Shown here one piece after another: positions 27,155 to 62,200 of a stretch of DNA of 64,000 bases. The notes below the pieces were generated by a model that made no database searches, had not been told where the DNA came from, and worked only from the letters and a program-made list of their open reading frames with translations. The first letter of the stretch is position 1. Each line of letters begins with the position of its first letter. Both the position numbers and the translations under genes were made by a program. The DNA is taken from the NCBI RefSeq assembly GCF_949628265.1, contig NC_088789.1, positions 31,241,883-31,305,882 on the forward strand. The letters run 5' to 3'. This stretch comes from Cloeon dipterum. Taxonomy: Eukaryota > Arthropoda > Insecta > Ephemeroptera > Baetidae.

Positions 27155-27330
27155 TATTATGCTATGTCTATTTTATAGAAATTAGGTTTTTAAGTTACAT
27201 TTAGCTTTTACGCTTACCTTGATATAAGTTTTCCTTCAGACATCTACAACAGCGAGCTTCAACAGCGGGGAGACAATTGAGTTGGAAACGTTTAAGCACC
27301 TTGCTTTTGAAGGTTGAATGTTTTGAAAAT
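27155..27330 (-). promoter_or_regulatory. 5' UTR with short intron, ankyrin gene 1
   Basis: On the minus strand a donor ATCAAG|GTAAGC (G at 27217) and an acceptor ATAAAATAG (AG at 27169-27168) define an intron of about 50 nt just ahead of the ATG. The same pair is present before ankyrin genes 2, 3 and 4 (donor G at 30668, 35269 and 39889). The GCTTCAACAGCGG...AACGTTTAAGCACCTTGC block upstream is shared by all and is the likely first exon and promoter. Confidence 0.55.
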
Positions 27331-30605: not shown

Positions 30606-32474
30606 TATCTTGCTATGTCTATTTTATAGAAATTAGGTTTTTAAGTTAAATTTAGATTTTACGCTTACCTTGATACAAGTTTTCCTTCACACTTCTACAA
30701 CAGTGAGCTTCAACAGCGGGCAGACAATTGATTTGGAAACGTTTAAGCACCTTGCTTTTGAAGGTTGAATGTTTTGAAATTTTACTACTTTTAATAACAT
30801 ATTTTCTCCATTAATCAATTAGAAAACTTATCATTAAATTAAGAATATATTTGTCAGTCGGTTAATTTGATTTCAAAATCGCTGAGAAAAATAATTTTTC
30901 TTCGTAAAAACATGCCGAGAGCTTTGATTAAGTTGTTTACTCTTTATATATAGTAAATTAGACTTCTTAAGAGTTTTCTTTAAAATTACGTCATATTAAA
31001 TATAAAATGAAAAAACTCATGGATATGAATTCACATGTTTTAACCAATTAAATCGAATAAGTTGTTTTATATCCTTGAGGGTATACCCTTTTTTAAATAA
31101 CTTGATGATTTTAATTACGTGATTTTCAACATTTTCAAATACCTTGATCATTAATATAAAATATAGTTTACCGTGGAGAAAACATGTTATGAAATGTTTG
31201 AAAAGTTTCGAAACTTACTGACTTCAAAAGTAATGCACTAAAACATTTTCATCTTAATTATCTCGCAGCTGAATAAGCTGACTGTCGAAGTAGTTTCACG
31301 GAAAGATCGTCGAGAAACTTCCACAAAAATACCCTGAAGAAGAGAGCTTTTAAGTAAAGGCGTCGAAAATCAAAACCGGTCTTTAACATTGGCTGATAAT
31401 TTCATATTCAGGTTCATGTATTGAAAGCATGTGATCGAGTCCTGCTGGTTTTAATTTTTCAAATGTTTAAACAAGACGCTCTCAATCTTCTTATAAGTCC
31501 TTTTTTTCAGCTTGAATTTATAGTTCCGTGAAAGCATTAAAATGGAAAAGTTACCCGACAGTTGAACATACTCTCATTCATATCAAACAGGAATTGAACG
31601 TATGCCGGTCAATAAAAGTGTCATTAATGTCGTTATAGTCTGAAATGGCCTTCAATATTATTACCGGAGGCAGCAGTACCTATGATCAGCAGAGTAATTT
31701 CCGTCCTTACTAACGCTTATTTCGATAGTAAAAAAAATCCATACGTAAAAGTTACGTAAAAACAAAAGGAATTTAGGACGAAAATGTTGTGCGATGAATT
31801 CATTCTCTACCCTATATACAAGAGGAAAATATTTGAACCGCCGCCATTAAAAAGTTGCTTTGATGTTGGATTTTGACTTTTTTACAATTCAGATAGTAGA
31901 AAGAATTTTTAATAAATGAAACGTTTATTCCATATATTCGTATTAAGCTTTAAAACACGATGTAATTACTTCTGGATTCATATAAATTGGGACAAATATT
32001 TGTATTGTTATATTAATTATAATTATCAATGTAGCACAATATGCAGAGTGTGGACTCATAATGATATTATTAATATTTCCTAATAACTTATTGCTGAAGT
32101 TAGAAAGTTATGTTCATCTCTGATTCAAATGTTCGCACTGAAATTAGGAAGTGTGTTCACACCAACTTCTTCCAAGTCTGTTCCATTCTCAACGGGCAGT
32201 TTAGTTTCATCATTTTATCATTTTCAATTGAATAATTTACACCTGGCACCATATGGTTTAAATGTATTGATTTGAAAGAATAAACAAGAATGATAAATCA
32301 GAAAAATTCCGTACTAAGAACATCTACTTTAGTAAAATAAATTAATTCATCAATATTATTTGGATTTTATAAAACAAAACGGCAGATAAACTTTAAAAAA
32401 CTTTTAAAAACACCCAAAGAAAATTCATGAGGAATATCCCTTATATATCTTTAGATCTTTAATACCTATTAATG
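30606..32474. other. Ankyrin spacer 2
   Basis: Upstream flank of gene 2 followed by downstream flank of gene 3; most of it recurs at 35206-37080 and 39827-41300. It contains the 5'-UTR intron of gene 2 and spacer-block copy 2 (31437-31725). No independent gene seen. Confidence 0.55.
31437..31725. repeat. Conserved spacer block, copy 2 of 5
   Basis: Same block as 28195-28485. The hairpin is lost here (GACGCTCTCAATCTTC), and the same change is found in copy 4, suggesting copies 2 and 4 share a more recent origin. Confidence 0.6.
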
Positions 32475-32876
32475 TGTAGGAGCGGTAGTCGTATGAAGTA
32501 AAACACTCAACTACTGATTTTTAACTTGCTTTAACTTGCTTTATTAGACTGAGTGAACAGAGACCGGCCTAAACGGCTGGCCATAAAGTGCGTCGCGAAG
32601 TAGAGTTTTATTTGAATCATATTTATTGCTGTGCATTACTAATAAGGGTGAAATTGGGTTTGCCTTTATTGTCAGAGATTATTGTAAATTGTAATATCGA
32701 TGAATTGAGGACACAATTAGTCAGCTAATTAATGTTGTTAATTTAAGTACATTTTGAGATAGGAGATATGGGAGAAACTTCTGGAGGTTTTCAGCACCAT
32801 CTTAAGTGGGGGTGAGAAGTCACAAGAGCACAGGGCGCACTAGCACAAAGTGGGGGAGAGAGTCAGAGCCACCACA
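32475..32876. mobile_element. Solo LTR (402 bp) with AATG target-site duplication
   Basis: It begins TGTAGGAGCGGTAG, ends AGAGCCACCACA (TG...CA), and is flanked on both sides by AATG (32471-32474 and 32877-32880). The paralogous spacers (28730-28745 and 37066-37082) read straight through CTATTAATG/CTAATAATG into AACATACATG, giving an unoccupied site. No internal retrotransposon sequence is present, so this is a recombination product of an LTR retroelement. The superfamily cannot be told. Confidence 0.82.
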
Positions 32877-32913
32877 AATGCGTAACATACATGCAAAACG
32901 ATTTATCAAAGAT

Positions 32914-35205
32914 TTAAAACTTGAATCCTTTATCAGCCAACATCTTCATCATTTCATTGTCCCCTTTTTCAGTGGCCAATTCAACAATAGTTTTTCCACC
33001 TGGTCCAGGTTCTGCAATTAGGCCAGGAAGCTTTTCAATCAGGTATTTGGCACTTTCTACTTTGTTGCAGCTAACACTGTAGCTCAATAAGCTTTCCGCT
33101 CCTATTTTTATTGTTAAATCCGCGCCAAGTCTCACCAATTCTTCGGCAGCAACAATGTTGTTATTATTAAAGGCCTCGTGCAGTGGAGTGAACCCATCTT
33201 CGTTTTTTCTGTTCACATTGAGTGAATACTTGCTGACAAGATATTGAATAATTTCCTTTCCATGTGACGTGTTGCACGCAGCGAGATCCAAAACAGACAA
33301 TTTTTGTTCTCCGGCCAAAGCATGAGGGTCCATTCCGCATTCGTCCACCAACCATTTGCACATGTCCAAGTCTGCGTGCTCTGCTGCGATGTGAAGAGAA
33401 GTTTTTCCATCCCCACGGAGGTCTTTTACAAGATTTTGTTTCTTTTCTTTTAAAAAATTTGCACCTTTCATTTTGTTCTCTCTTACGCAGTAATGCATTA
33501 AATTTTCCAAATTATCAGAGTATTTGGTATCTGATAGTTTTACCTTTAAATCCGCGCCAAGTCTCACCAATTCATCGGCAGCAACAATGTTGTCATTATA
33601 AAAGGCCTCGTGCAGTGGTGTGAACCCATATTCGTCTTTTCTATTTACGTCGAGTGCGTACGTGTTGACGAAAAATGTAATAATTTCCTTTCCATGTGAC
33701 GTGTTGCACGCAGCATCATCCAAAACAGACAATTTTTGTTTTCCGGCCAAAGCTCGAGGGTCAAGGCCGCATTCGTCCACCAACCATTTGCACATGTCCA
33801 GGTCTGCATACATTGCTGCGATGTGAAGAGAAGTTTTTCCATCCCCACGGAGGTCTTTTACAAGATTTTGTTTCTTTTCTTTTAAAAAATTTGCACCTTT
33901 CATTTTGTTCTCTCTTACGCAGTAGTGCATCAAATTTTCGAAATTTTTGGAGCCATTGGTGTTAGACCGTTTTACTTTTAAATCTGCGCCAAGTCTCACC
34001 AATTCTTCTGCAGCAAAAATATTGTTATTATAAAACGACTGGTGCAAAGGTGTAAACCCATCTTCGTCTTTTCTGTTCACATCAAGTGAAAACTTCTTGA
34101 CGAAAAAAGAAATGATTTCTTTTCCATGACGCTCGTTGCACGCAGCGATTTCCAAAACTGACAATTTTTGTTTTCCAACCAAAGCGCGAGGGCCAAGGCT
34201 GCATTCGTCCACCAACCATTTGCACATGTTCAAGTCTGCACGCTTTGCTGCGATGTGAAGAGATGTGTATCCATCCCCGCGCAGGTCTTTTACCAGATTT
34301 CGATTCTTCTCTTGTAAAAATTTAGCACTTTTCAATTTATTCCACCTTACGCACCAGTGCATTAAAGTTTCGCATTTTCTGTTGTCATTGGTGACTCGTT
34401 TTACTTCTAGATTTGCACCAAGGGTCAACAACACTTCGGCAATATCGATGTTTCCCTTGCACAATGCACAATGGAGAGGCGTGTACCCAAGTTTGTCTTT
34501 TGCGTTCACGTCAAAGCAATGCTCGGAAACGAAATACTGCACAAGTTCTGTGCCGTGCGATTTGTTGAGTGCGGCACAATGAATAACGTTGTCCTCGTAT
34601 TCATTCATTGTTAAGGATCGAACGTCGACACCTTCATTCAAAAGCCACTTGCACATATCAAGATCGCCGAGCATAGCTGCCAGGTGGATCGCTGACCTTC
34701 CAGTATTTCCAAAACCATAGTAATTAGTAAGGAGCCCTTTATCCTGTTCCAGCATCATTTTTGCTAATATTGATTGGTATCGTGACTCTTTGTCAGACTT
34801 GTCCTTTTTATTCTCTTCTTCTGTGCATTTTTGTTTGAGCAGTTTCTCGACTACCTTTGAATTATTCATTTTGATTGCGTATTGAAGTGGTTCATCTCCA
34901 AACTTGTCTTTTGCGTTCAGCTTCAATCCAAGAGATGAAAAGTAATCAATCAGTTCCAATCCGTGCTTCTTGTTCAGGGCCGCGTAGTGCATCAGCGAGG
35001 CGCCGAGTTTTTCGCATTTAACATTCGCAACAAGTCCTTCTTCAACGAGATGTCGACACATATCGACTTCATCGATCATCGCGGCGACCTGCAGAGGAGT
35101 CAAGTAATCTGTTTGGGAGACGATGAATGTTTTCTTCGTGATAGAGTACGATTCAGCCAGTACTGTTTTCCGAAGAGCAAGTTCGATGAATTCGTCCATG
35201 TCCAT
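32914..35205 (-). CDS. Ankyrin-repeat protein 3 (763 aa, 4 supermodules)
   Basis: An uninterrupted 763-residue frame starting MDMDEFIELALRKTVLAESY. Four supermodules open with GRSAIHLAAM, GYTSLHIAAK, GKTSLHIAAM and GKTSLHIAAE. The stretch 'GANFLKEKKQNLVKDLRGDG' occurs twice, about 142 residues apart, pointing to a recent internal duplication or conversion. Compared with protein 1 it has exactly one extra block. Its 3' flank is interrupted by the solo LTR 38 bp beyond the stop, which may have changed its polyadenylation. Cytosolic scaffold role inferred from ankyrin repeats only. Confidence 0.88.
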   Translation of the reverse strand: MDMDEFIELALRKTVLAESYSITKKTFIVSQTDYLTPLQVAAMIDEVDMCRHLVEEGLVANVKCEKLGASLMHYAALNKKHGLELIDYFSSLGLKLNAKDKFGDEPLQYAIKMNNSKVVEKLLKQKCTEEENKKDKSDKESRYQSILAKMMLEQDKGLLTNYYGFGNTGRSAIHLAAMLGDLDMCKWLLNEGVDVRSLTMNEYEDNVIHCAALNKSHGTELVQYFVSEHCFDVNAKDKLGYTPLHCALCKGNIDIAEVLLTLGANLEVKRVTNDNRKCETLMHWCVRWNKLKSAKFLQEKNRNLVKDLRGDGYTSLHIAAKRADLNMCKWLVDECSLGPRALVGKQKLSVLEIAACNERHGKEIISFFVKKFSLDVNRKDEDGFTPLHQSFYNNNIFAAEELVRLGADLKVKRSNTNGSKNFENLMHYCVRENKMKGANFLKEKKQNLVKDLRGDGKTSLHIAAMYADLDMCKWLVDECGLDPRALAGKQKLSVLDDAACNTSHGKEIITFFVNTYALDVNRKDEYGFTPLHEAFYNDNIVAADELVRLGADLKVKLSDTKYSDNLENLMHYCVRENKMKGANFLKEKKQNLVKDLRGDGKTSLHIAAEHADLDMCKWLVDECGMDPHALAGEQKLSVLDLAACNTSHGKEIIQYLVSKYSLNVNRKNEDGFTPLHEAFNNNNIVAAEELVRLGADLTIKIGAESLLSYSVSCNKVESAKYLIEKLPGLIAEPGPGGKTIVELATEKGDNEMMKMLADKGFKF

Positions 35206-37108
35206 TATCTTGCTATGTCTATTTTATAAAAAAATAGGTTTTTAAGTTACATTTAGCTTTTACGCTTACCTTGATACAAGTTTTCCTTCACACTTATACA
35301 ACAGTGATTTTCAACAGCGGGCAGACAATTGATTTGGAAACGTTTAAGCACCTTGCTTTTGAAGGGTAAATGTTTTGAAATTTTACTACTTTTAAGAACA
35401 TATTTTCTCCATTAATCATTTAGAAAACTTATCATTAAATTAAGAATATATTTGTCAGTCGGTTAATTTGATTTCAAAATCGAGAAAAATAATTTTTCTT
35501 CGTAAAAACTTGCCGAGAGCTTTGATTAAGTTGTTTACTCTTTATATATAGTAAATTAGACTTCTTAAGAGTTTTCTTTAAAATTACATCATATTAAATA
35601 TAAAATGAAAAAACTCATGGATATGAATTCACATGTTTTACCAATTAAATCGAATAAGTTGTTTTATATCCTTGAGGGTATACTTTTTTTAAATAACTTT
35701 ATGGTTTTAATTACGTGATTTTCAACATTTTCAAATATCTTGATCATTAATATAAAATATAGTTTACCGCGGAGAAAACATGTTATGAAATGTTTCAAAA
35801 GTTTCAAAACTTACTGATTTCAAAGGTAATGCACTAAAACATTGTCACCTTAATTATCTCGCAGCTGAATAAGCTGACTGTTGAAGTATAGTTTCACGGA
35901 AAGATCGCCGAGAAACTGCTTCCACAAAAATACCCTGAAGAAGAGAGCTTTTAAGTAAAGGCGTCGAAAATCAAAACCGGTCTTTAACATTGGCTGATAA
36001 TTTCATTTTCAGGTTCATTTATTGAAAGCATGTTATCAAGTCCTGCTGGTTTTAATTTTTCAAATATTTTAACCAGACGCTCTCAAGCGTCTTAAGTCCT
36101 TTTTTGTTTTTCAGCTTCAATTTAGTCCCGTGAAAGCATTAAAATGGAAAAGTTACCCGACAATTGAACATACTCTCATTCATATCAAACAGGAAAATTG
36201 AACGTATGCCAAGTGTCATTAATGTCGTTATAGTGTGAAATGGTCTTTAATATTATAACCGGAGGCAGCAGTACCTATGATCAGCAGAGTAATTTCCGTC
36301 CTTACTAACGATTATTTCATCGATAGTAAAAAAATCATACTTAAAAAGTAATATAAAAACGAAAGGAATTTAGGACGAAAATGTTGTTGTGCGATGAGTT
36401 CATTCTCTACCCTATACATACAAGAAGAAAATATGTGATAGCCGCCATTAAAAAGTTGCTTTGATGTTGGATTTGTACTTTTTTACAATTTAGAACGTAA
36501 AATGAATTTTTAAGAAATGAAACGTGTATTCCGTATATTCGTATTAAGCTTTAAAACACGATGTAATTACTTCTGGATTCGTATAAATTGGGACAAATAT
36601 TTTTAATGTTATATTAATTATAATTATCAATGCAGCACAATGCAGAATGTGGACTCATAATGATATTATTAATATTTCCTAATAACTTATTGCTGAAGTT
36701 AGATAGTTATGTTCATCTCTGATTCAAATGTTCGCACTGAAATTAGGAAGTGTGTTCACACCATCTTCTTCCAAGTCTGTTCCATTCTCAACGGGCAGTT
36801 TAGTTTCATCATTTTATCATTTTCAATTGAATAATTTACACCTGGCACCATATGGTTTAAATGTATTGATTTGAAAGAATAAACAAGAATGATAAATCAG
36901 AAAAATTCCGTACGAAGAACATAGACTTTAGTAAAATAAATTAATTCATCAATAATATTTGGACATTACAAAACAAAACGGCAAAAAACTTTAAAGAAAT
37001 TTTAAAAACACCCAAAGAAAATTCATAAGGATAATTCCTTATTATATATCTTTCGAACTTTAATACCTAATAATGCTTAACATACATGAAAAACGAATTA
37101 TCAACGAT
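35206..37108. other. Ankyrin spacer 3
   Basis: Same organisation as spacer 2: 5'-UTR intron and first exon of gene 3 (donor at 35269), AT-rich flank, spacer block (36034-36325), then gene 4 downstream flank. No independent gene seen. Confidence 0.55.
36034..36325. repeat. Conserved spacer block, copy 3 of 5
   Basis: Same block as 28195-28485, with the intact GACGCT-CTCA-AGCGTC hairpin. It has a small deletion in the GGTCAATAAAAG part. Confidence 0.6.
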
Positions 37109-39826
37109 TTAAAACTTGAATCCTTTCTCAGTCAACATCTTCATCATTTCACTGTCTCCTTTTTCAGTGGCCAACTGAACGATAGTTTTTCCATCTTCTC
37201 CCGGCTCTACAAGTAAGCCAGGAAGCTTTTCAATCAGGTATTTGGCACTTCCAACTTTGTTATTACAAACACTGAACTGCAACAAATTTTCCGGTCCTCT
37301 TTTCACTGTTAAATCCGCACCAAGTCTAACCAGTTCTTCGGCAGCATCAATGTTGTTATTGAAAAACGCCTGGTACAGTGGTGTGTATCCAACATCGTCT
37401 TTTCTGTTCACATCGAGTGAATACTTACTGACGAGATATTGAATAATTTCCTTTCCATGTGATTTGTTGCACGCAGCGAGATCCAAAACAGACAATTTTT
37501 GTATTCTGACGAGAGCACGAGGGTCAAGGCCGCATTCGTCCACCAACCATTTGCACATGTCCAAGTCTGCGTGCCCTGCTGCGATGTGAAGAGAAGTTTT
37601 TCCATCTTGTCTAAGCTCATTTACAAAATTTTGGTTCTTTTGGTGTAAAAATTTCGCACATTTCATTTTATTCTCTCCTACGCAGTAATGCATTAAATTT
37701 TCCATATTATCGGAGTCATTGGTGTCTGGTAGTTTTACATTAATATCCGCGCCAAGTCTCACCAATTCTTCGGCAGTAACAATGTTGTCATTATAAAACG
37801 CCTGGTGCAGTGGTGTGAACCCATATTCGTCTTTTCTGTTCACATCGAGTGAATACTTGCTGACGAAATATTGAATAATTTCCATTCCATGTGACATATT
37901 GCTCACAGCGAGATCCAAAACTGACAATTTTTGTTCTCCGGCAAGAGCATGTGGGTCAAGGCCGCATTCGTCCAGCAACCATTTGCACATGTCCAAGTCT
38001 GCGTGCTCTGCTGCGATGTGAAGAGAAGTTTTTCCATCTTCTCTAAGCTCATTTACCAAATTTTGGTTCTTTTGTTGTAAAAATTGTGCACTTTTCATTT
38101 GGTTCACTCTCATGCAGTAGTGCATTAAATTTTCCAAATTATCGGAGTATTTGGTTTCTGATAGTTTTACATTTAAATCCGCGCCAAGTCTCACCAATTC
38201 TTCGGCAATATCAATATTGTCATTATAAAAAGCCTCGTGCAGAGGTGTGAACCCATATTCGTCTTTTCTGTTCACATCGAGTGCATACTTATTGACAAAA
38301 AATAGAATAATTTCCTTTCCGTGTGACTTGTTACACGCAGCGGTTCCCAACACTGACAATTTTCGGTTTCCGGCAAGAGCACGAGGATCAAGGCCGCATT
38401 CGTCCACCAACCATTTGCACATGTCCAAGTCTGCGTGCTCTGCTGCGATGTGAAGAGATGTGTATCCATCCCCGCGGAGGTCTTTTACCAGATATCGATT
38501 CTTTTCTTGTAAAAATTTTGCACTTCTCATTTTGTTCCAACTTACGCAGTAGTGCATTAAATTTTCCAGAGTATCGGAGTCATTGTTGTCTGATCGTTTT
38601 ACATTTAAATCCGCGCCAAGTCTCACCAATTCTTCTGCAGCAACAATGTTGTCATTATAAAACGCCTGGTGCAGAGGTGTGAACCCATATTCGTCTTTTC
38701 TGTTCACATCGAGTGAATACTTGCTGACAAGATATTGAATAATTTCCTTTCCATGTAATTTGTTGCACGCTGCGAGTTCCAAAACTGACAAGTTTTGTTT
38801 TCCGGCAAAAGCATGAGGGTCAAGGCCGCATTCGTCCACCAACCATTTGCACATGTCCAAGTCTGCGTGCTCTGCTGCGATGTGAAGAGATGTGTATCCA
38901 TCCCCGCGGAGGTCTTTTACCAGATATCGATTCTTGTCTTGAATAAATTTAGCACTTTTCAGTTTGTTCCACCTTACGCAGAAGTGCATTAGATTTTCGA
39001 ATTTTCTGCTGTCAGTGGTGACTTGTTTAACGGCTAGGTCTGCACCGAGTCTCAACAATTCTTCGGCAGTCTCGATGTTTTCCTTGAACAAGGCACTATG
39101 GAGAGGCGTGTACCCAAGTTTGTCTTTCGCGTTCACGTCAAAGCTATGCTCGGAAATGAAATAACGCGCCAGTTCTTTGCCGTGTGATTTGTTCTTTGCG
39201 GCACAGTGCAGCACGCTCTCCTCCAATTCATTCTTTGTTAAAGATTGAGCGTCCACGCCTTCGTTTAAAAGCCACTTGCACATGTCAAGATCGCCGAGCA
39301 TAGCTGCAAGGTGGATCGCTGACCTTCCAGTATTTCCAAAACCATAGTAATCAGTAAGGAGTCCTTTTTCCTGTTCCAGCACCATATTGGCTAAGATCGA
39401 GTGGTATCTTGACTCAGATTTGTTCTTGTTACTCTTTTCTTCGGGGCATTGTGGTTGGAGCAGTTTCTTGACGACCGTTGAATTGTTCACTCTGATTGCG
39501 TATTGAAGTGGTTCATCTCCAAACTTGTCTTTTGCGTTCAGCTTCAATCCAAGAGATGAAAAGTAATCAATCAGTTCCAATCCGTGCTTCTCGTTCAGGG
39601 CAGCGTAGTGCAACAGCGAGGCGCCGAGTTTTTCGCATTTAACATTCGCAACAAATCCTTCTTGAACGAGATGTCGACACATTTCGACTCCATCGATCAT
39701 CGCGGCGACCTGCAGAGGAGTCAAGGAAACTGTTTGGGAGACGATGAACGTTTTCTTCGTGAGGGAGTACGATTCAGCCAGTACTGTTTTTAGAACAGCA
39801 AGTTCGATGAATTCGTCCATGTCCAT
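37109..39826 (-). CDS. Ankyrin-repeat protein 4 (905 aa, 5 supermodules)
   Basis: The largest member, 905 residues in one frame. Five supermodules open with GRSAIHLAAM, GYTSLHIAAE, GYTSLHIAAE, GKTSLHIAAE and GKTSLHIAAG. Modules 2 and 3 are especially alike (both preceded by 'KNRYLVKDLRGDG'), as expected if one arose by recent in-frame duplication. The N-terminal section and the C-terminus (MLTEKGFKF) match the shorter paralogues, so size change is confined to the middle. A 5'-UTR intron precedes the ATG (donor at 39889). No other domain is seen. Confidence 0.88.
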   Translation of the reverse strand: MDMDEFIELAVLKTVLAESYSLTKKTFIVSQTVSLTPLQVAAMIDGVEMCRHLVQEGFVANVKCEKLGASLLHYAALNEKHGLELIDYFSSLGLKLNAKDKFGDEPLQYAIRVNNSTVVKKLLQPQCPEEKSNKNKSESRYHSILANMVLEQEKGLLTDYYGFGNTGRSAIHLAAMLGDLDMCKWLLNEGVDAQSLTKNELEESVLHCAAKNKSHGKELARYFISEHSFDVNAKDKLGYTPLHSALFKENIETAEELLRLGADLAVKQVTTDSRKFENLMHFCVRWNKLKSAKFIQDKNRYLVKDLRGDGYTSLHIAAEHADLDMCKWLVDECGLDPHAFAGKQNLSVLELAACNKLHGKEIIQYLVSKYSLDVNRKDEYGFTPLHQAFYNDNIVAAEELVRLGADLNVKRSDNNDSDTLENLMHYCVSWNKMRSAKFLQEKNRYLVKDLRGDGYTSLHIAAEHADLDMCKWLVDECGLDPRALAGNRKLSVLGTAACNKSHGKEIILFFVNKYALDVNRKDEYGFTPLHEAFYNDNIDIAEELVRLGADLNVKLSETKYSDNLENLMHYCMRVNQMKSAQFLQQKNQNLVNELREDGKTSLHIAAEHADLDMCKWLLDECGLDPHALAGEQKLSVLDLAVSNMSHGMEIIQYFVSKYSLDVNRKDEYGFTPLHQAFYNDNIVTAEELVRLGADINVKLPDTNDSDNMENLMHYCVGENKMKCAKFLHQKNQNFVNELRQDGKTSLHIAAGHADLDMCKWLVDECGLDPRALVRIQKLSVLDLAACNKSHGKEIIQYLVSKYSLDVNRKDDVGYTPLYQAFFNNNIDAAEELVRLGADLTVKRGPENLLQFSVCNNKVGSAKYLIEKLPGLLVEPGEDGKTIVQLATEKGDSEMMKMLTEKGFKF

Positions 39827-41983: not shown

Positions 41984-44900
41984 ATGAATTTTTGGTCTCT
42001 CCTGACTCTGCTTATAATATTAATTTTCACCGTACAACAATCAGAACCTAATGTAAGTAAGATGGAAACTTTATTTCCAAGCACTTTGGTTTCTGTTCAT
42101 TAATAATGATTTTTTTCTTTTTAAAATATTTCCATTTTAATCTGCATTATTCTACACAGAAAATCAAGTTGAAATCATTAAAGACAGTCAATTCCAACAA
42201 AAAATTATGTGAGCGATTAAATAGTTAGAGATTATTTTTGTTTCTTTTCTTATAAAACTCAAAATTTAAAGCGCAAAACAAAGCTGGTCGGAGAATCGCC
42301 ATCATAAGATGTTGCGGATTCAAAAGATGTCTCCCAGTAAAGAACGCAACCAAAACGAGGTCTTCAGTAATTCCAACAAGCAGCACAGTAAGAAACTTAT
42401 AAATCTAACATTTTATTAAAATCTCTAAATTTTCACAAAAGCTGGTGTCGAAAAACGAAGGCTCCGTAGCAACAGCATCGTTTCCGAATGTCGCAACCAA
42501 CCCAACAGGAAGCTCTAGCAGCGAAACAACATTCGACAGTAAAAGTTTCGAAACTACGGAAGTTGAAATGGAAAATTCAACCGCGCTGCCAGTTTCGAGT
42601 AGCAATATTTTCGACAGCAGCACTCCCGAACCCGAAGCAGCAAAAGAGAAGACTGTCAGTGACGTCATTACCCAAAAAAATAATTTTATCAGCACAGAGT
42701 CAGTGCCAACAAGCGAATCAATTAATTTGTCAAGTGGCAACATTGCTAGCAATTTTGGTATTTCTTTTTTATCTCCATACTTTCAAATTCTCAAGCATTC
42801 CGGCAGATTCAACAACAACCAATGGGGCGGCATCAGTGGCGACTGCAACATCTCTAGCGATATCAACAACTAGATCGTTAAATCTGACTAATTCGGTTAT
42901 TTCTACCAAATCGACAGGATCTCTGACCACGAACAGTAAGGCATCAGCGACAACAAAACCTACTACAACAACTTTAAAAGCTATTGCTACTACGACAACC
43001 ACTAGAACAACTTTAAAAACAATTATTACTACAGCAAAAGTAGGCTTGAGGTTTGAGAGAAACATTTACACCACTAATTTTCTTGTAGGCGATTTCGTGT
43101 TCTTTGACGTGCTCCAATTTTAATACCTTTCAAGCAGTAACAATTCATTTTTTGTGTTATCACGAATTTATATTAATCTACAAAGAAATCGCCTCTGCCG
43201 AAATCACCGCAATGTAAGTGGTTATTTTAATCTATGAAAGTACAAAACTGGAAGCTGTGGGGTTTCATAACAGCCGATGGTTCGGTCCAAAAGGCGAGCA
43301 AGTGCAACAGACAGTATTTCGTCTCCACTGTTGCCGTGAGTATAGTTGTTACGAATTTTATTACTAAACATCAGAAAAATAAATAGGCATCAAGAAATGA
43401 GGCAGCTTCGCGGTGCACGGCGATGAATATGACCCTTTTGACCGTCACTTCTCTCGAGGAATTGGACTGTCTGGCCAGTTTGAAGGGTTTAATTCCAATA
43501 CATTTAGCTTTAAGTGTAATGTTAATTGTTTAGATGGTACTTTCTGGACAAGTGGCTCAAACGAGGATGCGAATTGCGACTTGGAAAAAAAGTACGCTTG
43601 GTGTTCGACTGGCTACAACATTTCCACCGCTTTGGTCTCGTCTCCGAGTTTCTGGCTTCCAACCAACGCACCCCCTTCCGCCCTAGAACGATGTCTAGCC
43701 GTTGTCTTCTCCACCACCCCCCAAAAGGGGATGGTGCACAAAAACTGCGTCGACCAACTACCCTACATCTGCCAATTCACCGTTGACTGTCCCCGCAGTC
43801 ATCAATGCGTGAAAAATGTTCGTTTTAAATCATCCTTAACTGCCCTTGAGTAATATTTTCTTTAGACCTCATTATTTGATTCGAAAGGAGACTTGATGAG
43901 TATTAAAGATTATTTAATTTAACTCAGAAAATATAATTCTTATTCAAGACAAATCTTCTCATGGACTGTGGATCGACATTGGCAACTACACTTATCTTTT
44001 CGGGAACAAACCGGTTTTTTCAGTTAATCTTAAAAACAATTTAATAAAAAAAATTAACATTTCACAGATGTCTTGGCTATCCAACTACCTTTATTGCTGT
44101 GCTTTGGGAATGGAAACACTCAACATTGACAATGCGGCTGAGCAACTGGGCCTCACAGGCATGACCCTCGGCAAAAATTCAAGTAAACAAAGAACAATAC
44201 AATAAATAGATAAAAAAATCTTTCTCCTAGACAACTGGAAGGCGAATTTTAACTACTGGACTGCCGGCACGAAAAAGGGTTCTTCAGAGTTTTCATGGTG
44301 CGAGCCCACGGGCCCGACAATTTTCGACCAGGGGCTCACTTGGGAGGCCGGCCAGCCCGACAACGCCGCTGGAAACGAGAGTTGCGTTCACTTTCGCTTC
44401 ATTTTGAATTCAACGGGAACCGTCATGACCGATAGAAACTGCAATAGCAAATTCATTTTCGCGTGCAAGGTGCAAATAATTCGAATGATCAAAGATTTAA
44501 ATTACTTTGATTGTTCAAACCGGTAGTACTCATATATATGAGGATAGTATTTGACTAACCAGAAAATTATAACATGTAATTAAATTCCAGGCTCAACGCA
44601 TTACGCCTACTAAAACGTGCGAAGCTTCATGCCCTGCTAAAACTTGCACGAAAGATGTGACTTAATTTTAACAAATTTACATATTTATATTTATAATTTT
44701 TAAAATCAAGGCGAGTCTCTTTAATGCTACTAGCGGCTATCTCTTAGGTTTAACTCATACGTTATCCATAGAAAGTATTTTTAACATTTTTAAATAGACT
44801 ACACGTATTTTGGCGATTGGTACGATGGGTGCGGCCGCTTCCTTTTAACATACCTCGCCAAGACAGTTAGTCATTCCCCGTTTTAATGAAATTATATATT

Positions 44901-46994
44901 AATTTTAATCCAAATAATCACACCAAAGTCTGACTGGACGGCTGCTCGGGAAAATTGTTGCGCTGTTGGCATGAACCTGGCTTCCATTGAGTCTGCGGGA
45001 AAACTAAAATGCGTTTCCAGAATTGCCTCAGGTATTCTTTTATATGATTTAATGCTTCTATTTTACTGGTTAATACCCTAGAATCTTCTCCACGGATCAT
45101 CGGCGATTTTTGGCTTTCTGGCACGGGCTCAGGGTGCGATTCAAATTTCCGGTGGTGCTCTTTGGGTCGCGATTTCGTCAACTCTGAGCTCAAGTGGAAG
45201 GCTGGACATCCCAAGGCGGGTCTCAACTGCGTTTATCTCGAGGCGAGAAACGAGTCCGTGCTCTTGGCCACTGCTTACTGCTCCGAGCAGAAATATTTTC
45301 TCTGCGAGGCCAAAAAGGCAGCAAACTCCTCTCAACTCGGCACGCAGGCTGAATGCGCTGACATTTGGAACGTCACGAGCGGTTGGAAAAATCGAATAAC
45401 AATTGAAGAACAAACAAAACCATTTTTTTTAATTTAGAGCAAATCGACCTCCTATTGAATGTCTCAGCTTTTATTACGTCAAGCATCTCAATTAATTTGA
45501 AGGTTTGAAAATTAAGTTTTTTATTTCCTTTTGTTTAAAAACTTTGTTTAGTGCTTCTTGAAATGCATGGGCGTGGAAATTGGATTGGTATCATGATTTT
45601 AATTTAATTTAATAATTAATAATTGGTATTTATAGCTTCAATTGGGAGGGCTTAGTGGCATAGACATGTTGCGGCAAATAGAATTAGTGTCACAGGAAGA
45701 GCCTAAGAAAATGGAAGATGGATTTGGAGCTTTAGATGAGTGCAGCGGCAAAAGTTTGATTTATTTTAAATTATATGCATTATAATTATTTGTTTTTTTT
45801 TAAGAATTTGATGACGAGTGCGTGACAGCTCACGAGATTTACAAATGCGGCCTGGAGAAGCAACCGGAAATGGTCACAAAAATAATCAGCAATAACTACG
45901 ACTCATCATCTGTGGTTAGTTTAATAACTCTGGTTTACTTTTTTCTTCCTTTCAACTTGAAAATGAAACTGTTTTAAAACACGAGTAGAGTGGTCTGTTA
46001 GTTATACGCTGTTGAGAAGCGATCTACTTGCGCACGGTGGAGGACCGCAGATGTTCTGATTGGTCAAATAAGAAACTGATTTCACCGCCGGCCAATCAGG
46101 ACGTCCAGAATCCTCCGCCGCGCCAAAAAGATCGCTCTTTTCCTCGCTAAACACGCAGGAAAGGTTGAAAGAATGTATTGTTATCAGCTTTCCTTTTGTT
46201 ATTTTTACCTCAAATTAAGGTTTCCCCGCCGATTCCGGGTGTTCCGGTTCCTCGATCTTGTTGGATGTCAAAAATGTTACCCTGTGTTGCTGATGTATAT
46301 ATATTTATTTATTTCTTCGTAAATACAAAAATCACTTTTTAGCAAACTGCCATCAATAATTTAGCAGCAAAACGTTCTGGTAAGCAGCTTGAAAATTTTT
46401 ATAATTATTAACCGATAAACTAAAACTAAATTCGAAAAACATAGATGCCATAGGAAGTTTGAAAGTAGTTGGAGGAATGACCTTCTACTTGCGAACCCCT
46501 AATTTGGCGGATATGAATGTTGTAATGACAATCAAACTGATTATTCGATTATGGTTTGATTAATTCAAACCCTGATTAGTCCGCGAGTTTTGCATTTCAA
46601 CACTGCTGCGCACTCGGAATGAGGCTTTACGAGCCATCAACAAAAGCAGATTTAGACGTGGCTAAAAGTCTTTCAAGTATTTTAATTTTTTTCAATTAAA
46701 ATGTATATATACCTAATGATATTTACTTTAGTTCATCCTTTGCATTTAATTGTGGGCGAGACGCAATCCATCAACCGAACGCATGAGGCGTATTGCCGCA
46801 GCCGCGCCATTTTGGCAGACGACCTATACACATTCCCCACGGGCATCAATAGATATCCCATAACCGAATCGATCTTGGGAGTCAACGCATACTATAAAAT
46901 ACTTACCGTGACGTACGTCGAGAACCAAAACATTCACGACATGTTTCTCAAAGGGGTTAATTTCAGGAGTTTTAATTCTTTTGCTTGTGTTTGA
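41984..46994 (+). CDS. Secreted multi-CTLD / odorant-binding-protein chimera, gene 1 (26 exons)
   Basis: Exons: 41984-42052, 42160-42208, 42272-42387, 42442-42757, 42807-43039, 43186-43213, 43274-43335, 43387-43486, 43534-43817, 43866-43899, 43949-44013, 44068-44182, 44231-44469, 44591-44656, 44711-44747, 44798-44865, 44929-45031, 45082-45381, 45438-45502, 45552-45587, 45636-45753, 45805-45914, 46343-46379, 46445-46518, 46580-46676, 46732-46994; 1,027 residues, one frame. Order: signal peptide (MNFWSLLTLLIILIFTVQQ); basic Cys segment (RCCGFKRCLP); Ser/Thr-rich mucin-like region to about 270; CTLD1 271-419; CTLD2 431-570, with QPD about 532-534, the galactose-type calcium-site motif; CTLD3 593-752, lacking EPN/QPD; OBP domain from 753, C753-x30-C784-x3-C788-x42-C831-x8-C840-x8-C849, the classical OBP spacing; degenerate CTLD4 872-1027, ending FACV. 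Likely extracellular. OBPs carry hydrophobic ligands and CTLDs often bind glycans; a joint function is inference. An AATAAA lies at about 47098. Confidence 0.85.
46015..46150. repeat. Foldback element inside the large intron 22 of gene 1
   Basis: GCGATCTACTTGCGCACGG...CTGATTGG on the left pairs imperfectly with CCAATCAGG...CGCCAAAAAGATCGC on the right; CCAAT-type cores sit in both arms. The intron is 428 nt, far longer than the usual 47-65 nt, so this looks like an inserted MITE-like hairpin. Gene 2 has the same insertion. Confidence 0.6.
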
Positions 46995-50152: not shown

Positions 50153-53100
50153 ATGAGTTTTTGGTATCTCCTGACTCTGCTTATTATATTAATTTTCACC
50201 GTACAACAATCAGAACCTAATGTAAGTAAGCTGATAACTTTATTTCCAAGCACTTTGCTTGATGTTCATTAATAATGATTTCTCACGTCTCTGTTTTTTC
50301 TATTTAAAATATTTTCATTTTCATCTGCATTATTTATTATTCTACACAGAAAATCAGGTTGAAACCATTAAAGACAGTCAATTCCAACAAAAAACTATGT
50401 GAGCGATTAAATAGTTAGATATTATTTTGTTTCTTTTCTAATAAAACTCAAAATTTAAAGCGCAAAACAAGGCTGGTCGGAGAATCACCATCATAAGATG
50501 TTGCGGATTCAAAAGATGTCTCCCAGTAAAGAACACGACCAAAACGAGGTCTTCAGTAATTCCAACAAGCAGCACAGTAAGAAACTTATAAATCTACAAT
50601 TTTATAAAATCTATAAATTTTCACAAAGCTGGTGTCGAAAAACGAAGGCTCCACAGCAACAGCATCGTTTCCGAATGTCGCAACCAACCCAACAGGAAGC
50701 TCCAGCAGCGAAACAACATTCGACAGTAAAAGTTTCGAAACTACGGAAGTTAAAATGGAAAATTCAACCGCGCTGCCAGTTTCGAGTAGCAATATTTTCG
50801 ACAGCAGCACTCCTCAAACAGCAAAAGAGAAGACTGTCAGTGACGTCACCACCCAAAAAAATAATTTCATCAGCACAGAATCAGCACCAACAAGCGAATC
50901 AATTAATTTGTCAAGTGGCAACATTGCTAGCAATTTTGGTATTTCATTTTTCTCCATACTTTCAAATTCTCAAGCATCCCGGCAGATTCAACAACAACCA
51001 ATGGGGCGGCATCAGTGGCGACTGCAACATCTCTAGCGATATCAACAACTAGATCGCTAAATCTGACTAATTCGGTTATTTCTACCAAATCAACAGCACC
51101 TCTAACCTCAAACAGTAATGCAGCAGCGACAACAAAACCTACTACAACAACTTTAAAAGCTATTGCTACTACGCCAACCTCTAGAACAACTTTAAAAACA
51201 ATTATTTCTACAACTACAGTACGCTTTGAGGTTTGAGAGAAACATTTACACCAAGAATTTTCTTCTAGGTGATTTCGTGTTCTTTGACGTGCTCCAATTT
51301 TAATACTTTTCAATCAGTAATAATTCATTTTTTGTATTATCACGATTTTATATTAATCTACAAAGAAATCGCCTCTGCCGAAATCACCGCAATGTAAGTG
51401 GTTATTTTTATTAATGAAAGAACAAAACTGGAAGCTGTGGGGTTTCATAACAGCCGATGGTTCGGTACAAAAGGCGAGCAAGTGCAACAGACAGTATTTC
51501 GTCTCCACTGTTGCCGTGAGTAATTTTCACGAATTTTATTACAAAACATCAGAAAAATAAATAGGCATCAAGAAATGAGGCAGCTTCGCGGTGCACGGCG
51601 ATGAACATGACCCTTTTGACCGTCACATCTCTCGAGGAATTGGACTGTCTGGCCAGTTTGAAGGGTTAAATTCGAATATTTAGAATTTTTAAAGGGCAAA
51701 TAATCAAGTATTGTTCAGACGGTACTTTCTGGACAAGTGGCTCAAACGAGGATGCGAATTGCGACTTGGAAAAAAAGTACGCTTGGTGTTCCACTGGCTA
51801 CAACATTTCCACCGCTTTGGTCTCGTCTCCGAGTTTCTGGCTTCCAACCAACGCACCCCCTTCCGCCCTAGAACGATGTCTAGCCGTTGTCCTCTCCACC
51901 ACCCCGCAAAAGGGGATGGTGCACAAAAACTGCGTCGACCAACTTCCCTACATCTGCCAATTCACCGTTGACTGTCCCCGCAGTCATCAATGCGTGAAAA
52001 ATGTTTGCTTTAAATCGTCCTAAACAGCCCTTAAATAGTATTTTCTTAAGACCTCGTTGTTTGATTCGAAAGGAGACTTGATGAGTATTAAAGATTATTT
52101 AATTTAACTCAGAAAATATAATTCTTATTCAAGACAAATCTTCTCATGGACTGTGGATCGACATTGGCAACTACACTTATCTTTTTGGGAACAAACCGGT
52201 TTTTTCAGTTAATCTTAAAAACAATTTAATAAAAAAATAACATTTCACAGATGTCTTGGCTATCCAACTACCTTTATTGCTGTGCTTTGGGAATGGAAAC
52301 ACTCAACATTGACAATGCGGCTGAGCAACTGGGCCTCACAGGCATGACCCTCGGCAAAAATTCAAGTAAACAAAGAACAATACAATAAATAGATAAAAAA
52401 ATCTTTCTCCTAGACAACTGGAAGGCGAATTTTAACTACTGGACTGCCGGCACGAAAAAGGGATCTTCAGAGTTTTCATGGTGCGAGCCCACGGGCCCGA
52501 CAATTTTCGACCAGGGGCTCTCTTGGGAGGCCGGCCAGCCCGACAACGCCGCTGGAAACGAGAGTTGTGTTCACTTTCGCTTCATTTTGAATTCAACGGG
52601 AACCGTCATGACCGATAGAAACTGCAATAGCAAATTCATTTTCGCGTGCAAGGTGCAAATAATTCGAATGAACAAAGATTTAAATTAATATGATTATTCA
52701 AACCGGTTGTACTCATAGAAATGTGGATTATCTGACTAAACAGAAAATTTAAACATGTAATTAAATTCCAGGCTCAACGCATTACGCCTACTAAAACGTG
52801 CGAAGCTTCATGCCCTGCTAAAACTTGCACGAAAGATGTGACTTAATTTTAACAAATTTACATATTTATTTATAATTTTTAAAATCAAGGCGAGTCTCTT
52901 TAACGCTTCCAGCGGCTATCTCTTAGGTTCAAATCATACGACATCCATAGAAAGTTTTATTTTAACATTTTTAAATAGACTACACGTATTTTGGCGATTG
53001 GTACGATGGGTGCGGCCGCTTCCTTTTAACATACCTCGCCAAGACAGTTAGTTATTCCCAGTTTTAATGGAATTATATATTAATTTTAATCCAATCCATC

Positions 53101-55185
53101 ACACCAAAGTCTGACTGGACGGCTGCTCGGGATAATTGTTGCGCTGTTGGAATGAATCTGGCTTCCATTGAGTCTGCGGGAAAACTAAAATGCGTTTCCA
53201 GAATAATCTCTGGTAATTGTTATAGAATTAAATTGCTATCACTATATGATTTAAACCCTAGAATCTTCTCCACGGATCATCGGCGATTTTTGGCTTTCTG
53301 GCACGGGCTCAGGGTGCGATTCAAATTTCCGGTGGTGCTCTTTGGGTCGCGATTTCGTCAACTCTGAGCTCAAGTGGAAGGCTGGACACCCCAAGGTGGG
53401 TCTCAACTGCGTTTATCTCGAGGCGAGAAACGAGTCAGTTCTCTTGGCCACTGCTGACTGCGCCGAGCAGAAATATTTTCTGTGCGAGGCCAAAAAGGCG
53501 GCAAACTCCTCTCAACTCGGCACGCAGGCCGAATGCGCTGACATTTGGAACGTCACGAGCGGTTGGAAAAATTATATAACAGTCTAAGAAGAAACAAACT
53601 CTTTTTTAACTTAGAGCAAATCGACCTCCTATTGAATGTCTCAGCTTTTATTACGTCAAGTATCTCAATTAATTTGAAGGTATGAAAATTTGGTTTTTTA
53701 TTTCCTTTTCTTTAAAACCTTTGTTTAGTGCTTCTTGAAATGCATGGGCGTGGAAATTGGATTGGTATCATGATTTTAATTTAATTTAATAATTAATAAT
53801 TGAAATTATAAGCTTCAATTGGGAGGGCTTAGTGGCATAGACATGTTGCTGCAAATAGAATTAGTGTCACAGGAAGAGCCTAAGAAAATGGAAGATGGAT
53901 TTGGAGCTTTCGACGAGTGCAGCGGCAAAAGTTTGATTTATTTTAAATTATATGCATTATAATTATTTGTTTTTTTTAAGAATTTGATGACGAGTGCGTG
54001 ACAGCTCACGAGATTTACAAATGCGGCCTGGAGAAGCAACCGGACATGGTCACAAAAATAATCAGCAATAACTACGACTCATCATCTGTGGTTAGTTTAA
54101 TAACTCTGGTTTACTTTTTTCTTCCTTTCAACTTGAAAATGAAACTGTTTTAAAACACGGGTTGAGTGATCTGTGTGTTACACACTGTCGAAAAGCGATC
54201 TATTTGCACTTGGCGGAGAACCGTGGATGGTCTGATTGGTCAAGTAAGAAAATGATTCCACATTCCACCGCCGGCCAATCAGGACGTCCAGAATCCTCCG
54301 CTGCGCCAAAAATTTCGCATATTTCCTCGCTGATCACTCAGGAAAGGTTGAAAGAATATATTGATATCAGCTTTCCTTTCTATTTTAATCATAAATTAAG
54401 GCTTCCCCGCCGATTCCGGGTGTTCCTGTTCCTCGATCTTGTTGGATGTCGAAAATGTTTCCCTGCGTTGCTGATGTATATATATTTATTTATTTCTTCG
54501 TAAATACAAAAATCACTTTTTAGCAAAATGCCATCAATAATTTAGCAGCAAAACGTTCTGGTAAGCAGTAAAATTTCTTGAAACTTTTAAATATGAATAA
54601 ACATTTAATAACGAAAGTCAAATTATACATAATAGACGCTTTCGGAAGTTTAATAGATGTTGGAGGAAAGACTTATTATAAGAGAACCATTAATGATTTC
54701 CCGAAATTCAATGTTGTAATAACACACAAACTGAATATTAGAATAGTTTAATTAATTATAACCCTGATTAGTCCGTGCGTTTTGCATATCAACACTGCTG
54801 CGCACTTGGAATGAGGCTTTTCGAACCGGCAACTCTGGCAGATTTTGACCTGGCTAAAAGTTTTTACAGTACTTTTAATTTCTATGATATTTCCAGACGC
54901 TCTATACTGATATTTCCTTCAGATTTGGCTTTGCATTTAATTGTGGGCGAGACAGAATCCATCAACCGAACGCATGAGGCGTATTGCCGCAGCCGCGTAA
55001 TATTGGCTGACGACCTATACATGAACCCCACTGGATTTAACAGATATCCCACAACCGAATCGATCTTCGGATTCTTCACGTTCACTAAAAAATTTACTGT
55101 CACTTCTAGGGAGAACCAAAACATTCACGACATGTTTCTCAAAGACGATTATCCCCAAATATATAACTCCTTTGCTTGTGTTTAA
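50153..55185 (+). CDS. Secreted multi-CTLD / odorant-binding-protein chimera, gene 2 (26 exons)
   Basis: Exons: 50153-50221, 50350-50398, 50461-50576, 50629-50938, 50986-51218, 51366-51393, 51454-51515, 51565-51664, 51719-52002, 52051-52084, 52134-52198, 52251-52365, 52414-52652, 52772-52837, 52890-52926, 52979-53046, 53110-53212, 53262-53561, 53615-53679, 53729-53764, 53813-53930, 53981-54090, 54524-54560, 54636-54712, 54772-54868, 54923-55185; 1,026 residues, uninterrupted. Same order as gene 1: signal peptide MSFWYLLTLLIILIFTVQQ, mucin-like region two residues shorter, CTLD1-3 (QPD kept in CTLD2), all six OBP cysteines at identical spacing, CTLD4. Exons 1-23 differ from gene 1 by few residues; exons 24-26 differ heavily (for example 'LIDVGGKTYYKR' against 'LKVVGGMTFYLR', with one extra codon). 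Both copies therefore look functional but differ in the C-terminal domain. Confidence 0.83.
54165..54350. repeat. Foldback element inside intron 22 of gene 2
   Basis: Counterpart of 46015-46150: AAAAGCGATCTATTTGC...TCTGATTGGTCAA against GGCCAATCAGGACG...GCGCCAAAAATTTCGC. Arm pairing has decayed in places. The insertion predates the gene duplication. Confidence 0.55.
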
Positions 55186-60772: not shown

Positions 60773-62200
60773 ATGGACTCAGACGAATTTAAAAAATTAA
60801 TTATCATAAAATCCGCACTGACTGAATGGTATACTGTGAACAAGAAAACGTTCATCGACTTCCAAAGAGACTCATTGACACCTCTGCAGGTCGCTGGGAT
60901 GATCGATGGAGTCGATATGTGTCGACATTTCATTGAAAAAGGCGCCGATTTCAATGTTAAATGTAAAGAACTCGACGCCACGCTGATGCACTGCGCTGCC
61001 CTGAACGAACAGCACGGATTGGAACTGATCGATTACTTTTCATCTCTGGGTTTGAAGCTGGACGCAAAAGACAAGTTTGGAGATGAACCACTTCAATACG
61101 CAATCAAAATGAATAATTCGAAGGTTGTTCAGAAACTGCACTCATTAAACTGCCCCGAGGAAGAGAGTAACAAGAACAAACCTGAATCTCGATACCACTC
61201 AAGTTTAGCCAAAATGGTGATGGAACAGGATAAAGGGCTGCTGAATGATTTCGGTGTGACGGGAAGATCAGCAATTCACCTTGCAGCTATGCTCGGCGAT
61301 CTTGACATATGCAAGTGGCTTTTGAACGAAGGCGCCGACGTTCGATCTTTGACAAAGAATGAATACGAGGACAGCGTGCTTCACTGTGCCGCATTGAACA
61401 AATCGCACGGCAAAGAACTTGTGCAGTATTTCGTTTCCGAGCATTGCTTTGACGTGAACGCGAAAGACAAACTTGGGTTCACGCCTCTCCATTTTGCATT
61501 GTTCAAGGAAAACATCGAGACTGTCGAAGAATTGTTGCAACGCGGCGCAGACATAGCAGTAAAAAGGGCCGCCAATGACTCCAACGATTTGGAAAATTTG
61601 ATGCACTGCTGTGTAAGGTGGAACAAATTGAAAAGTGCTAAATTTTTGCAAGAAAAGAAACGAAATCTGGTAAAAGACCTCCGCACCCTCTGCGGGTATG
61701 GATATACATCTCTTCACATCGCAACAATGAATGCAGACTTGGACATGTGCAAATGGTTGGTGGACGAATGCGGAATGGACCCTCATGCTTTGGCTAGAAA
61801 ACAAAAATTGTCTATTTTGGAATACGCCGCATGCAACATGACACATGGAAAGGAATTAATTACATATTTCGTCAAGAAGCATGCACTCGATGTGAACAGG
61901 AAAGACGAATTTGGATACACACCACTGCACCAGGCGTTTTATGTTAACAATATTGTTGCTGCCGAAGAATTGGTGAGACTTGGCGCAGATTTAAAAGTAA
62001 AAAATGGACCGGAAAACTTATTACAATTCAGTATTCGCAATGACAAAGTTGAGAGTGTCAAATTTCTGTTCGTGAAGCAACCTGCCCTAATTGCAGAGGC
62101 CGGTAATTCGATAGTTTCACTAGCCAAAAAACACGCAGGCAAAGAAATGAAGTCATTTTTAGTTGAGAAAGGATTTTTACCTGAAGTGTTGGCTCAATGA
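60773..62200 (+). CDS. Ankyrin-repeat protein 6 (475 aa, 2 supermodules)
   Basis: The only ankyrin gene on the plus strand. One uninterrupted frame of 475 residues starting MDSDEFKKLIIIKSALTEWY. The N-terminal section resembles the others (TPLQVAGMIDGVDMCRHF; HGLELIDYFSSLGLKL). Two supermodules follow (GRSAIHLAAM and GYTSLHIATM), one fewer than protein 1. A four-residue insertion (TLCG, in 'RTLCGYGYTSLH') sits at the second opening. The C-terminus differs, ending FLVEKGFLPEVLAQ, and the last repeat is shorter. It is the most diverged intact member and likely the oldest split. Confidence 0.88.
   Translation: MDSDEFKKLIIIKSALTEWYTVNKKTFIDFQRDSLTPLQVAGMIDGVDMCRHFIEKGADFNVKCKELDATLMHCAALNEQHGLELIDYFSSLGLKLDAKDKFGDEPLQYAIKMNNSKVVQKLHSLNCPEEESNKNKPESRYHSSLAKMVMEQDKGLLNDFGVTGRSAIHLAAMLGDLDICKWLLNEGADVRSLTKNEYEDSVLHCAALNKSHGKELVQYFVSEHCFDVNAKDKLGFTPLHFALFKENIETVEELLQRGADIAVKRAANDSNDLENLMHCCVRWNKLKSAKFLQEKKRNLVKDLRTLCGYGYTSLHIATMNADLDMCKWLVDECGMDPHALARKQKLSILEYAACNMTHGKELITYFVKKHALDVNRKDEFGYTPLHQAFYVNNIVAAEELVRLGADLKVKNGPENLLQFSIRNDKVESVKFLFVKQPALIAEAGNSIVSLAKKHAGKEMKSFLVEKGFLPEVLAQ

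Follow-up and report, generated by a model that had tools for sequence, protein, structure and literature searches.

Odorant-binding-protein domains joined to C-type lectin domains in a predicted gene family of the mayfly Cloeon dipterum

Two tandem genes and their predicted domains

The window, that is, the whole stretch of 64,000 nucleotides of Cloeon dipterum DNA analyzed here (contig NC_088789.1, positions 31,241,883 to 31,305,882), contains two tandemly arranged genes on the plus strand, each modeled with 27 exons. The hand-built model of gene A (41984-46994) has GT-AG boundaries at all 26 introns, keeps the phases and, when spliced in silico, yields a predicted product of 1043 amino acids without an inner stop. 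A start of exon 8 at 43241 was dropped because it left an intron of 27 bases and put a stop in the second copy; the acceptor at 43274, to which the neighboring exon in the paralogues points, was adopted instead. The Pfam run was made on a gene A version of 1054 amino acids in which exon 8 had not yet been refined. Gene B (50153-55185), the tandem second copy, is likewise open and encodes 1042 amino acids, with the exons that correspond to the seam and the odorant-binding-protein (OBP) domain described below located at 53262-54090. Within a 6.6 kb stretch, the two copies are 90% identical. The genes are flanked by long single-frame ORFs with ankyrin repeats, four on the minus strand (25292-39826) and one on the plus strand (60773-62200); two of these five frames were scanned and identified as ankyrin, and the other three resemble them. 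Another tandemly repeated family, with long minus-strand frames, occupies positions 644-22461, and the two of its frames that were scanned gave weak matches to leucine-rich repeats, below the cut-off.

Exon 1 of gene A (41984..42052) carries the start codon and a hydrophobic N-terminus resembling a signal peptide. The hydropathy of the protein peaks at residue 1 (1.61), the next highest value elsewhere being 1.45 at residue 780, within the OBP domain, and from this N-terminus the protein is probably secreted. Exons 2 and 3 (42160..42387) encode a basic, cysteine-containing motif, RRxxIIxCCGFKRC, that a tblastn search against the family loci showed to be common to the paralogues; this motif, also written RRxxIIKCCGFKKC, precedes the mucin-like stretch in the window (42272-42387) and at loci L032-L050. 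The mucin-like stretch itself, identified by its Ser/Thr-rich composition, is encoded by exons 4 and 5 (42442..43039), with serine and threonine accounting for 41% of residues 81-262 of gene A, and an S/T-rich stretch (a fraction of at least 0.40 over 60 residues) is present in 20 of the 22 family models.

Three C-type lectin domains (CTLDs) follow, each with a linker: CTLD1 in exons 6-10 (43089..43817, with exon 8 at 43274-43335), assigned from the gene model, the Lectin_C stretches and a profile match to CTLD2 and CTLD3; CTLD2 in exons 11-14 (43866..44469), assigned from the gene model and the galactose-type motif QPDN; and CTLD3 in exons 15-19 (44591..45381), assigned from the gene model, Pfam and the paralogues. 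The last of these exons, exon 19 (45082-45381), is a seam exon that also encodes the first cysteine (C1) of the OBP domain. Three stretches of the gene A chain are recognized by the Pfam model Lectin_C, the best of them, for which alone the coordinates are given, at 54.6 bits against a cut-off of 22.6, and the three domains match one another in the profile comparison. QPD is the galactose-type motif of C-type lectins. It occurs, as QPDN, in all 19 CTLD2 exons examined, and neither QPD nor EPN was seen by eye in CTLD1 or CTLD3 of those same family members; the diverged members L052 and L053 differ in that EPN or QPD is present in CTLD1/CTLD3.

The OBP domain, at about residues 765-890 of 1043, is completed by exon 20 (45438..45502), which lies between C1 and C2, exon 21 (45552..45587), which encodes CFLKC (C2-x3-C3), exon 22 (45636..45753), with C4 close to its end, and exon 23 (45805..45914), which encodes C5-x8-C6 and a tail; all four are supported by the gene model and Pfam, and exon 23 also by the genome search. 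The first-pass annotation had pointed out a six-cysteine OBP pattern at 45082-45914, and its spacing of 30-3-42-8-8 is confirmed, with a shift in numbering: its exons 18-22 are exons 19-23 of the present model, and its C753...C849 correspond to C769...C865 (cysteines 769, 800, 804, 847, 856, and 865). The profile search of the spliced protein that it had proposed places both PBP_GOBP and Lectin_C above their cut-offs in one chain (35.6/22 and 54.6/22.6 bits, respectively), with PBP_GOBP matched once, at an E-value of 1.1e-8; for the gene A domain alone, the PBP_GOBP score is 39.7 bits against the same cut-off of 22.

We aligned 13 OBP domains, namely that of gene A and those of 12 paralogues, which were hand-picked from 25 distinct models with most near-duplicates omitted. 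All 13 match PBP_GOBP at E-values up to 0.01, and the six cysteines are invariant in all of them. The OBP domains of the diverged members L052, L053, and L054, for which the exons were joined by eye, also pass PBP_GOBP (29.1-51.3 bits) and keep the six cysteines. A profile built from the 13 domains retrieved 15 solved sequences at E-values up to 0.01, the top matches being Locusta OBP1 (2.4e-7) and LUSH (5.6e-6), and the alignment with LUSH spans C1 to C6 with all six cysteines paired up. Thirteen of these sequences are named odorant-binding proteins; the remaining two, labeled with Anopheles gene names only, are presumably OBPs as well. By these sequence comparisons, gene A contains a complete predicted OBP domain of the classic type. 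Two N-glycosylation sequons, which are odd for an OBP, are located inside the domain at residues 774 and 785 (window 45082-45502), and the second of these recurs in the majority of the 13 domains aligned.

Downstream of a short linker (exon 24, 46343..46379), exons 25-27 (46445..46994) encode a C-terminal module in which the frame (CCxLGM..EP; VGETxxINxTHExxCRSR) is conserved and the tail, which ends at the stop, is variable. In the first-pass annotation, the OBP domain was placed between CTLD3 and a fourth CTLD. The in-frame connection of CTLD3 to the OBP domain holds, and the fourth CTLD as a full domain was rejected: Lectin_C was matched in none of the four C-terminal modules compared with Pfam, and the likeness of the module profile to CTLD2 (92% probability) spans 30 columns only, the corresponding values being 63% and 60 columns for CTLD3 and 8% for CTLD1. 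Judging by the model, the selection pattern described below, Pfam and the profile comparison, the module is best called degenerate CTLD-like. Intron 23, which separates the OBP exons from exon 24, is 428 bp long, and reading through it soon meets a stop, so that forms ending after the OBP domain are possible; an inverted repeat sought in this intron was not found.

Lectin and OBP exons as one gene across the genome

The evidence that the CTLDs and the OBP domain are encoded by one gene comes in the first place from the seam. Exon 19 runs from the end of CTLD3 (FLCEAKK) to the first OBP cysteine (TQAECADIW) with no splice site between them, and introns 19-22 are 56, 49, 48, and 51 bp long, which leaves no room for a separate promoter, first exon or signal peptide. 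A stand-alone OBP comprises about 120-170 amino acids with a signal peptide of its own; here, the domain begins some 765 residues into the chain and its C1 is encoded in the CTLD3 exon. The seam exon was also found in paralogues and in the diverged member L052, and L053 and L054, which were read by eye, have an extra intron just ahead of the seam.

The order of the domains was compared at 20 loci of about 10 kb taken around the best OBP matches elsewhere in the genome, which are therefore selected for likeness to the gene A OBP. At all 20 loci, the exons for CTLD1, CTLD2, CTLD3, the OBP domain and the C-terminal module follow in this order on one strand, with no match obtained for exon 27 at two of the loci (L041, L042) or for exon 20 at one (L035). 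The search for splice sites in the paralogues is a weak test, since it tolerated shifts of up to 20 codons in either direction. Across the 25 distinct models, ten model exons contain stops, which we attribute to misplaced boundaries: exon 8 in seven cases, exon 14 twice (L040, L042) and exon 19 once (L051).

The pairing of CTLD and OBP exons was then followed across the whole assembly (190 Mb, 10 contigs). Each of the 96 strong OBP exons (C5-C6, E<1e-3) has a CTLD3 exon on the same strand 417-1420 bp upstream (median 477), compared with none of the 96 on the other strand, and 94 of the 96 also have CTLD2 upstream among the matches listed. Conversely, an OBP exon follows downstream of 96 of the 97 strong CTLD3 exons, and none of the 97 contains a stop inside the match. 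When a diverged member was used as the query, more distant places were added and the number of OBP candidates rose to at least 170. A CTLD2 or CTLD3 exon is located within 3 kb upstream of 151 of 170 candidates among the matches listed, compared with 0 of 170 on the opposite strand and 0.33 expected at random, and the 151 paired candidates use 149 distinct CTLD places among the matches listed. For 21 of the 170 candidates, the E-value in the list of first sighting was above 0.1 (up to 7.5), some of these scoring far better with the diverged query, and a few may be chance matches. Of the 19 unpaired candidates, the one that was read, L054, does have a CTLD. At two places (G000:C5:27974819-27976908 and G000:C1:17067368-17069406), one CTLD exon is followed on its strand by two OBP exons spaced about 2 kb apart, which may represent a form with two OBP domains.

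A pair of neighboring genes, one with the CTLD exons and the other with the OBP exons, joined merely in the model, would agree with the normally stand-alone state of OBPs and with the presence in the same genome of one stand-alone-looking OBP exon (L001), which is the single match of the Pfam OBP model when run against the genome exon by exon. This explanation nevertheless appears highly improbable given that C1 lies within the CTLD3 exon, that the introns between the OBP exons measure about 50 bp, that an OBP encoded on its own would have neither a start nor a signal peptide, and that the arrangement is kept at 151 of 170 places among the matches listed as well as in the three diverged members read. 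A genome search with a Locusta OBP fragment yielded four weak hits (E 0.4 to 1.8), each at the place of a family member. The idea that the copy in the window is a lone, decaying gene or a product of misassembly can be practically dismissed, since, even though only one gene was recognized at first and assembly errors can yield tandem copies, copies A and B are both open and paired members are present on all five large contigs (51 on C1, 48 on C4, 24 on C3, 20 on C5, and 6 on C2).

The seam, the short introns and the genome-wide pairing constitute an architecture that is read from the DNA, and it is very probable that the CTLDs and the OBP domain form one gene and one protein across a family. 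The single fusion gene of the first-pass annotation is accordingly a real fusion and not the sole one: the predicted family numbers about 150 genes among the matches listed and may be larger.

Selection and exchange between the copies

Ratios of non-synonymous to synonymous changes (omega) were estimated from 15 paralogue pairs with CTLD3 dS below 0.5, which share members and are not independent, with exons that were not found omitted. The pooled omega is 0.15 for CTLD1-3 and 0.18 for the OBP domain, compared with 0.72 for the C-terminal exons 26-27, and in all 15 pairs omega peaks in the C-terminal module. For the pair in the window, the values are 0.38 for the OBP domain, with five changes, and 0.42 for the C-terminal module. 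Within exon 27 (14 pairs), omega is 0.35 for the frame around VGETExINQTHEVWCRSR and 0.74 for the tail; an omega above 1 is not seen for the pooled variable tail of these 14 pairs, and dN exceeds dS in three single pairs. The median identity of the OBP domains between paralogues is 0.68. Thus, CTLD1-3 and the OBP domain are under purifying selection, and the C-terminal module is degenerate and variable. The in-frame joining of CTLDs and an OBP in a single protein that is probably secreted and includes a mucin-like stretch, as originally proposed for the window, is kept across the family under this constraint.

The two copies in the window diverge abruptly at their ends. In a run with the unrefined exon 8, dS between A and B is 0.03-0.10 up to the OBP domain and 0.47 in the C-terminal module; from CTLD1 to the OBP domain the proteins are nearly identical, compared with 97 of 144 residues alike in the C-terminal modules (46445-46994 versus 54636-55185). 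Intron 23 is 90% alike between the copies and intron 24 is 63% alike, introns 9, 18, and 26 also being in the range of 56-63% (again with the unrefined exon 8). The break at the C-terminal module suggests conversion or exchange. Among the family members, the distances between modules are correlated for CTLD3 and OBP (rho 0.51) and for CTLD1 and CTLD2 (rho 0.57), with 0 of 999 permutations as high in both cases, and uncorrelated for CTLD2 and OBP (rho 0.17, 108 of 999 permutations as high), CTLD2 and CTLD3 (0.11, 223 of 999), and OBP and exon 27 (-0.10, 818 of 999). Given that some of the module distances do not go together, modules may be exchanged between copies.

Relation to known proteins and possible function

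In textbook accounts, an OBP is a small carrier protein that stands on its own. OBP-type domains in longer proteins are familiar from the D7 salivary proteins and the dimer OBPs, in which they are joined to each other and not to lectins. With classic insect OBPs (PBP_GOBP; LUSH, Locusta OBP1), the domain described here shares the six-cysteine spacing, the motifs CFLKC and DECxxAxxxxxC and a nearly full-domain Pfam match; unlike them, it sits behind three lectin domains in a protein of about 1000 residues and lacks its own start and signal peptide. In gene A, the N-glycosylation sequons are a further difference. Similarly, the family resembles multi-CTLD proteins (Lectin_C) in its three recognized stretches and in the QPD of CTLD2, and differs from them in that CTLD1 and CTLD3 of the members examined, L052 and L053 excepted, are without QPD/EPN and are followed by the OBP domain and the degenerate end. 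The first-pass annotation knew of no described CTLD-OBP fusion, and our literature search, which covered few of the subscription journals, found none among the titles and abstracts listed.

The available text of a study of Cloeon dipterum based on a 180 Mb assembly (PMC7250882) reports 191 OBP genes, 167 of them complete, and calls this the largest repertoire described; for comparison, the available text on the heptageniid mayfly Parafronurus youi (PMC13205551) gives 10 OBPs of 135-252 residues. The number of OBP domains in the published Cloeon set is exceptional and comparable to that in the family described here. The two differ in that the available text of PMC7250882 describes OBP genes, with the word 'lectin' occurring 0 times in the main text by our count, whereas in the present family the OBP domain lies inside lectin proteins. 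We infer that the published 191-gene expansion may largely be the lectin-OBP fusion family.

With respect to function, the first-pass annotation saw in the fusion a possible extracellular receptor or opsonin. On our reading, the protein would be secreted and its mucin-like stretch would serve as an O-glycosylated stalk; CTLD2, being of the QPD type, would bind galactose-type sugars with calcium, the OBP domain would hold a conserved hydrophobic ligand or lipid, and the variable C-terminal end would give each copy a target of its own. Such a protein would combine extracellular recognition with carriage at water-exposed surfaces: it would attach to the glycans of mucus, of microbes or of the cuticle, and it would either present a lipid-like ligand or keep it sequestered. 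Taken as a whole, this mechanism is tentative, with a chance that we put somewhat below even; a role in defence or barrier recognition comes close to an even chance, and roles in the matrix or in adhesion appear rather unlikely. The conserved OBP domain and the variable tip are the opposite of what odor tuning through the OBP pocket would produce, which favors recognition and carrying over odor transport.

The conservation of the OBP domain can be read in another way, namely as that of a disulfide-rich structural spacer without a hydrophobic ligand, the protein acting as a lectin or matrix protein alone. The domain is indeed more conserved among the paralogues than odor tuning suggests (median identity and omega as given above); however, a shared ligand would also fit this conservation, and the features typical of OBPs, including the six cysteines, are kept in the paralogues and in three diverged members, so that we consider a mere spacer improbable, if worth keeping in view. 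A chemosensory family, in which the proteins would act in the gills and heads of aquatic nymphs as perireceptor OBPs anchored to glycans, with one odor class for each copy, appears somewhat less probable still. It is favored by the available text of PMC7250882, according to which 82 of 167 genes counted as Cloeon dipterum OBPs are expressed in gills and three such genes were shown in cell clusters found to be HRP-positive. Against it, the part that varies between the copies is the C-terminal module and not the OBP domain, and the tie between the published genes and the present family is itself conjectural.

In the family described here, the OBP domain is a constant component of large predicted lectin proteins, encoded by about 150 genes among the matches listed. 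Both the ranking of the Cloeon dipterum OBP repertoire as the largest and some of the reasoning that makes gills olfactory organs may then depend largely on products that are mostly lectin. If the mechanism proposed above is true, the family would represent a natural design of lectin plus lipid binding with a variable end. On a bolder interpretation, which we regard as unlikely though worth stating, the record OBP expansion of this aquatic insect would be one of a novel class of variable proteins for extracellular recognition rather than of odor carriers, in which constant lectin-OBP cores with a shared lipid ligand, each bearing a fast-changing C-terminal tip of its own, would make up a germline-encoded repertoire for the recognition of glycans or microbes.
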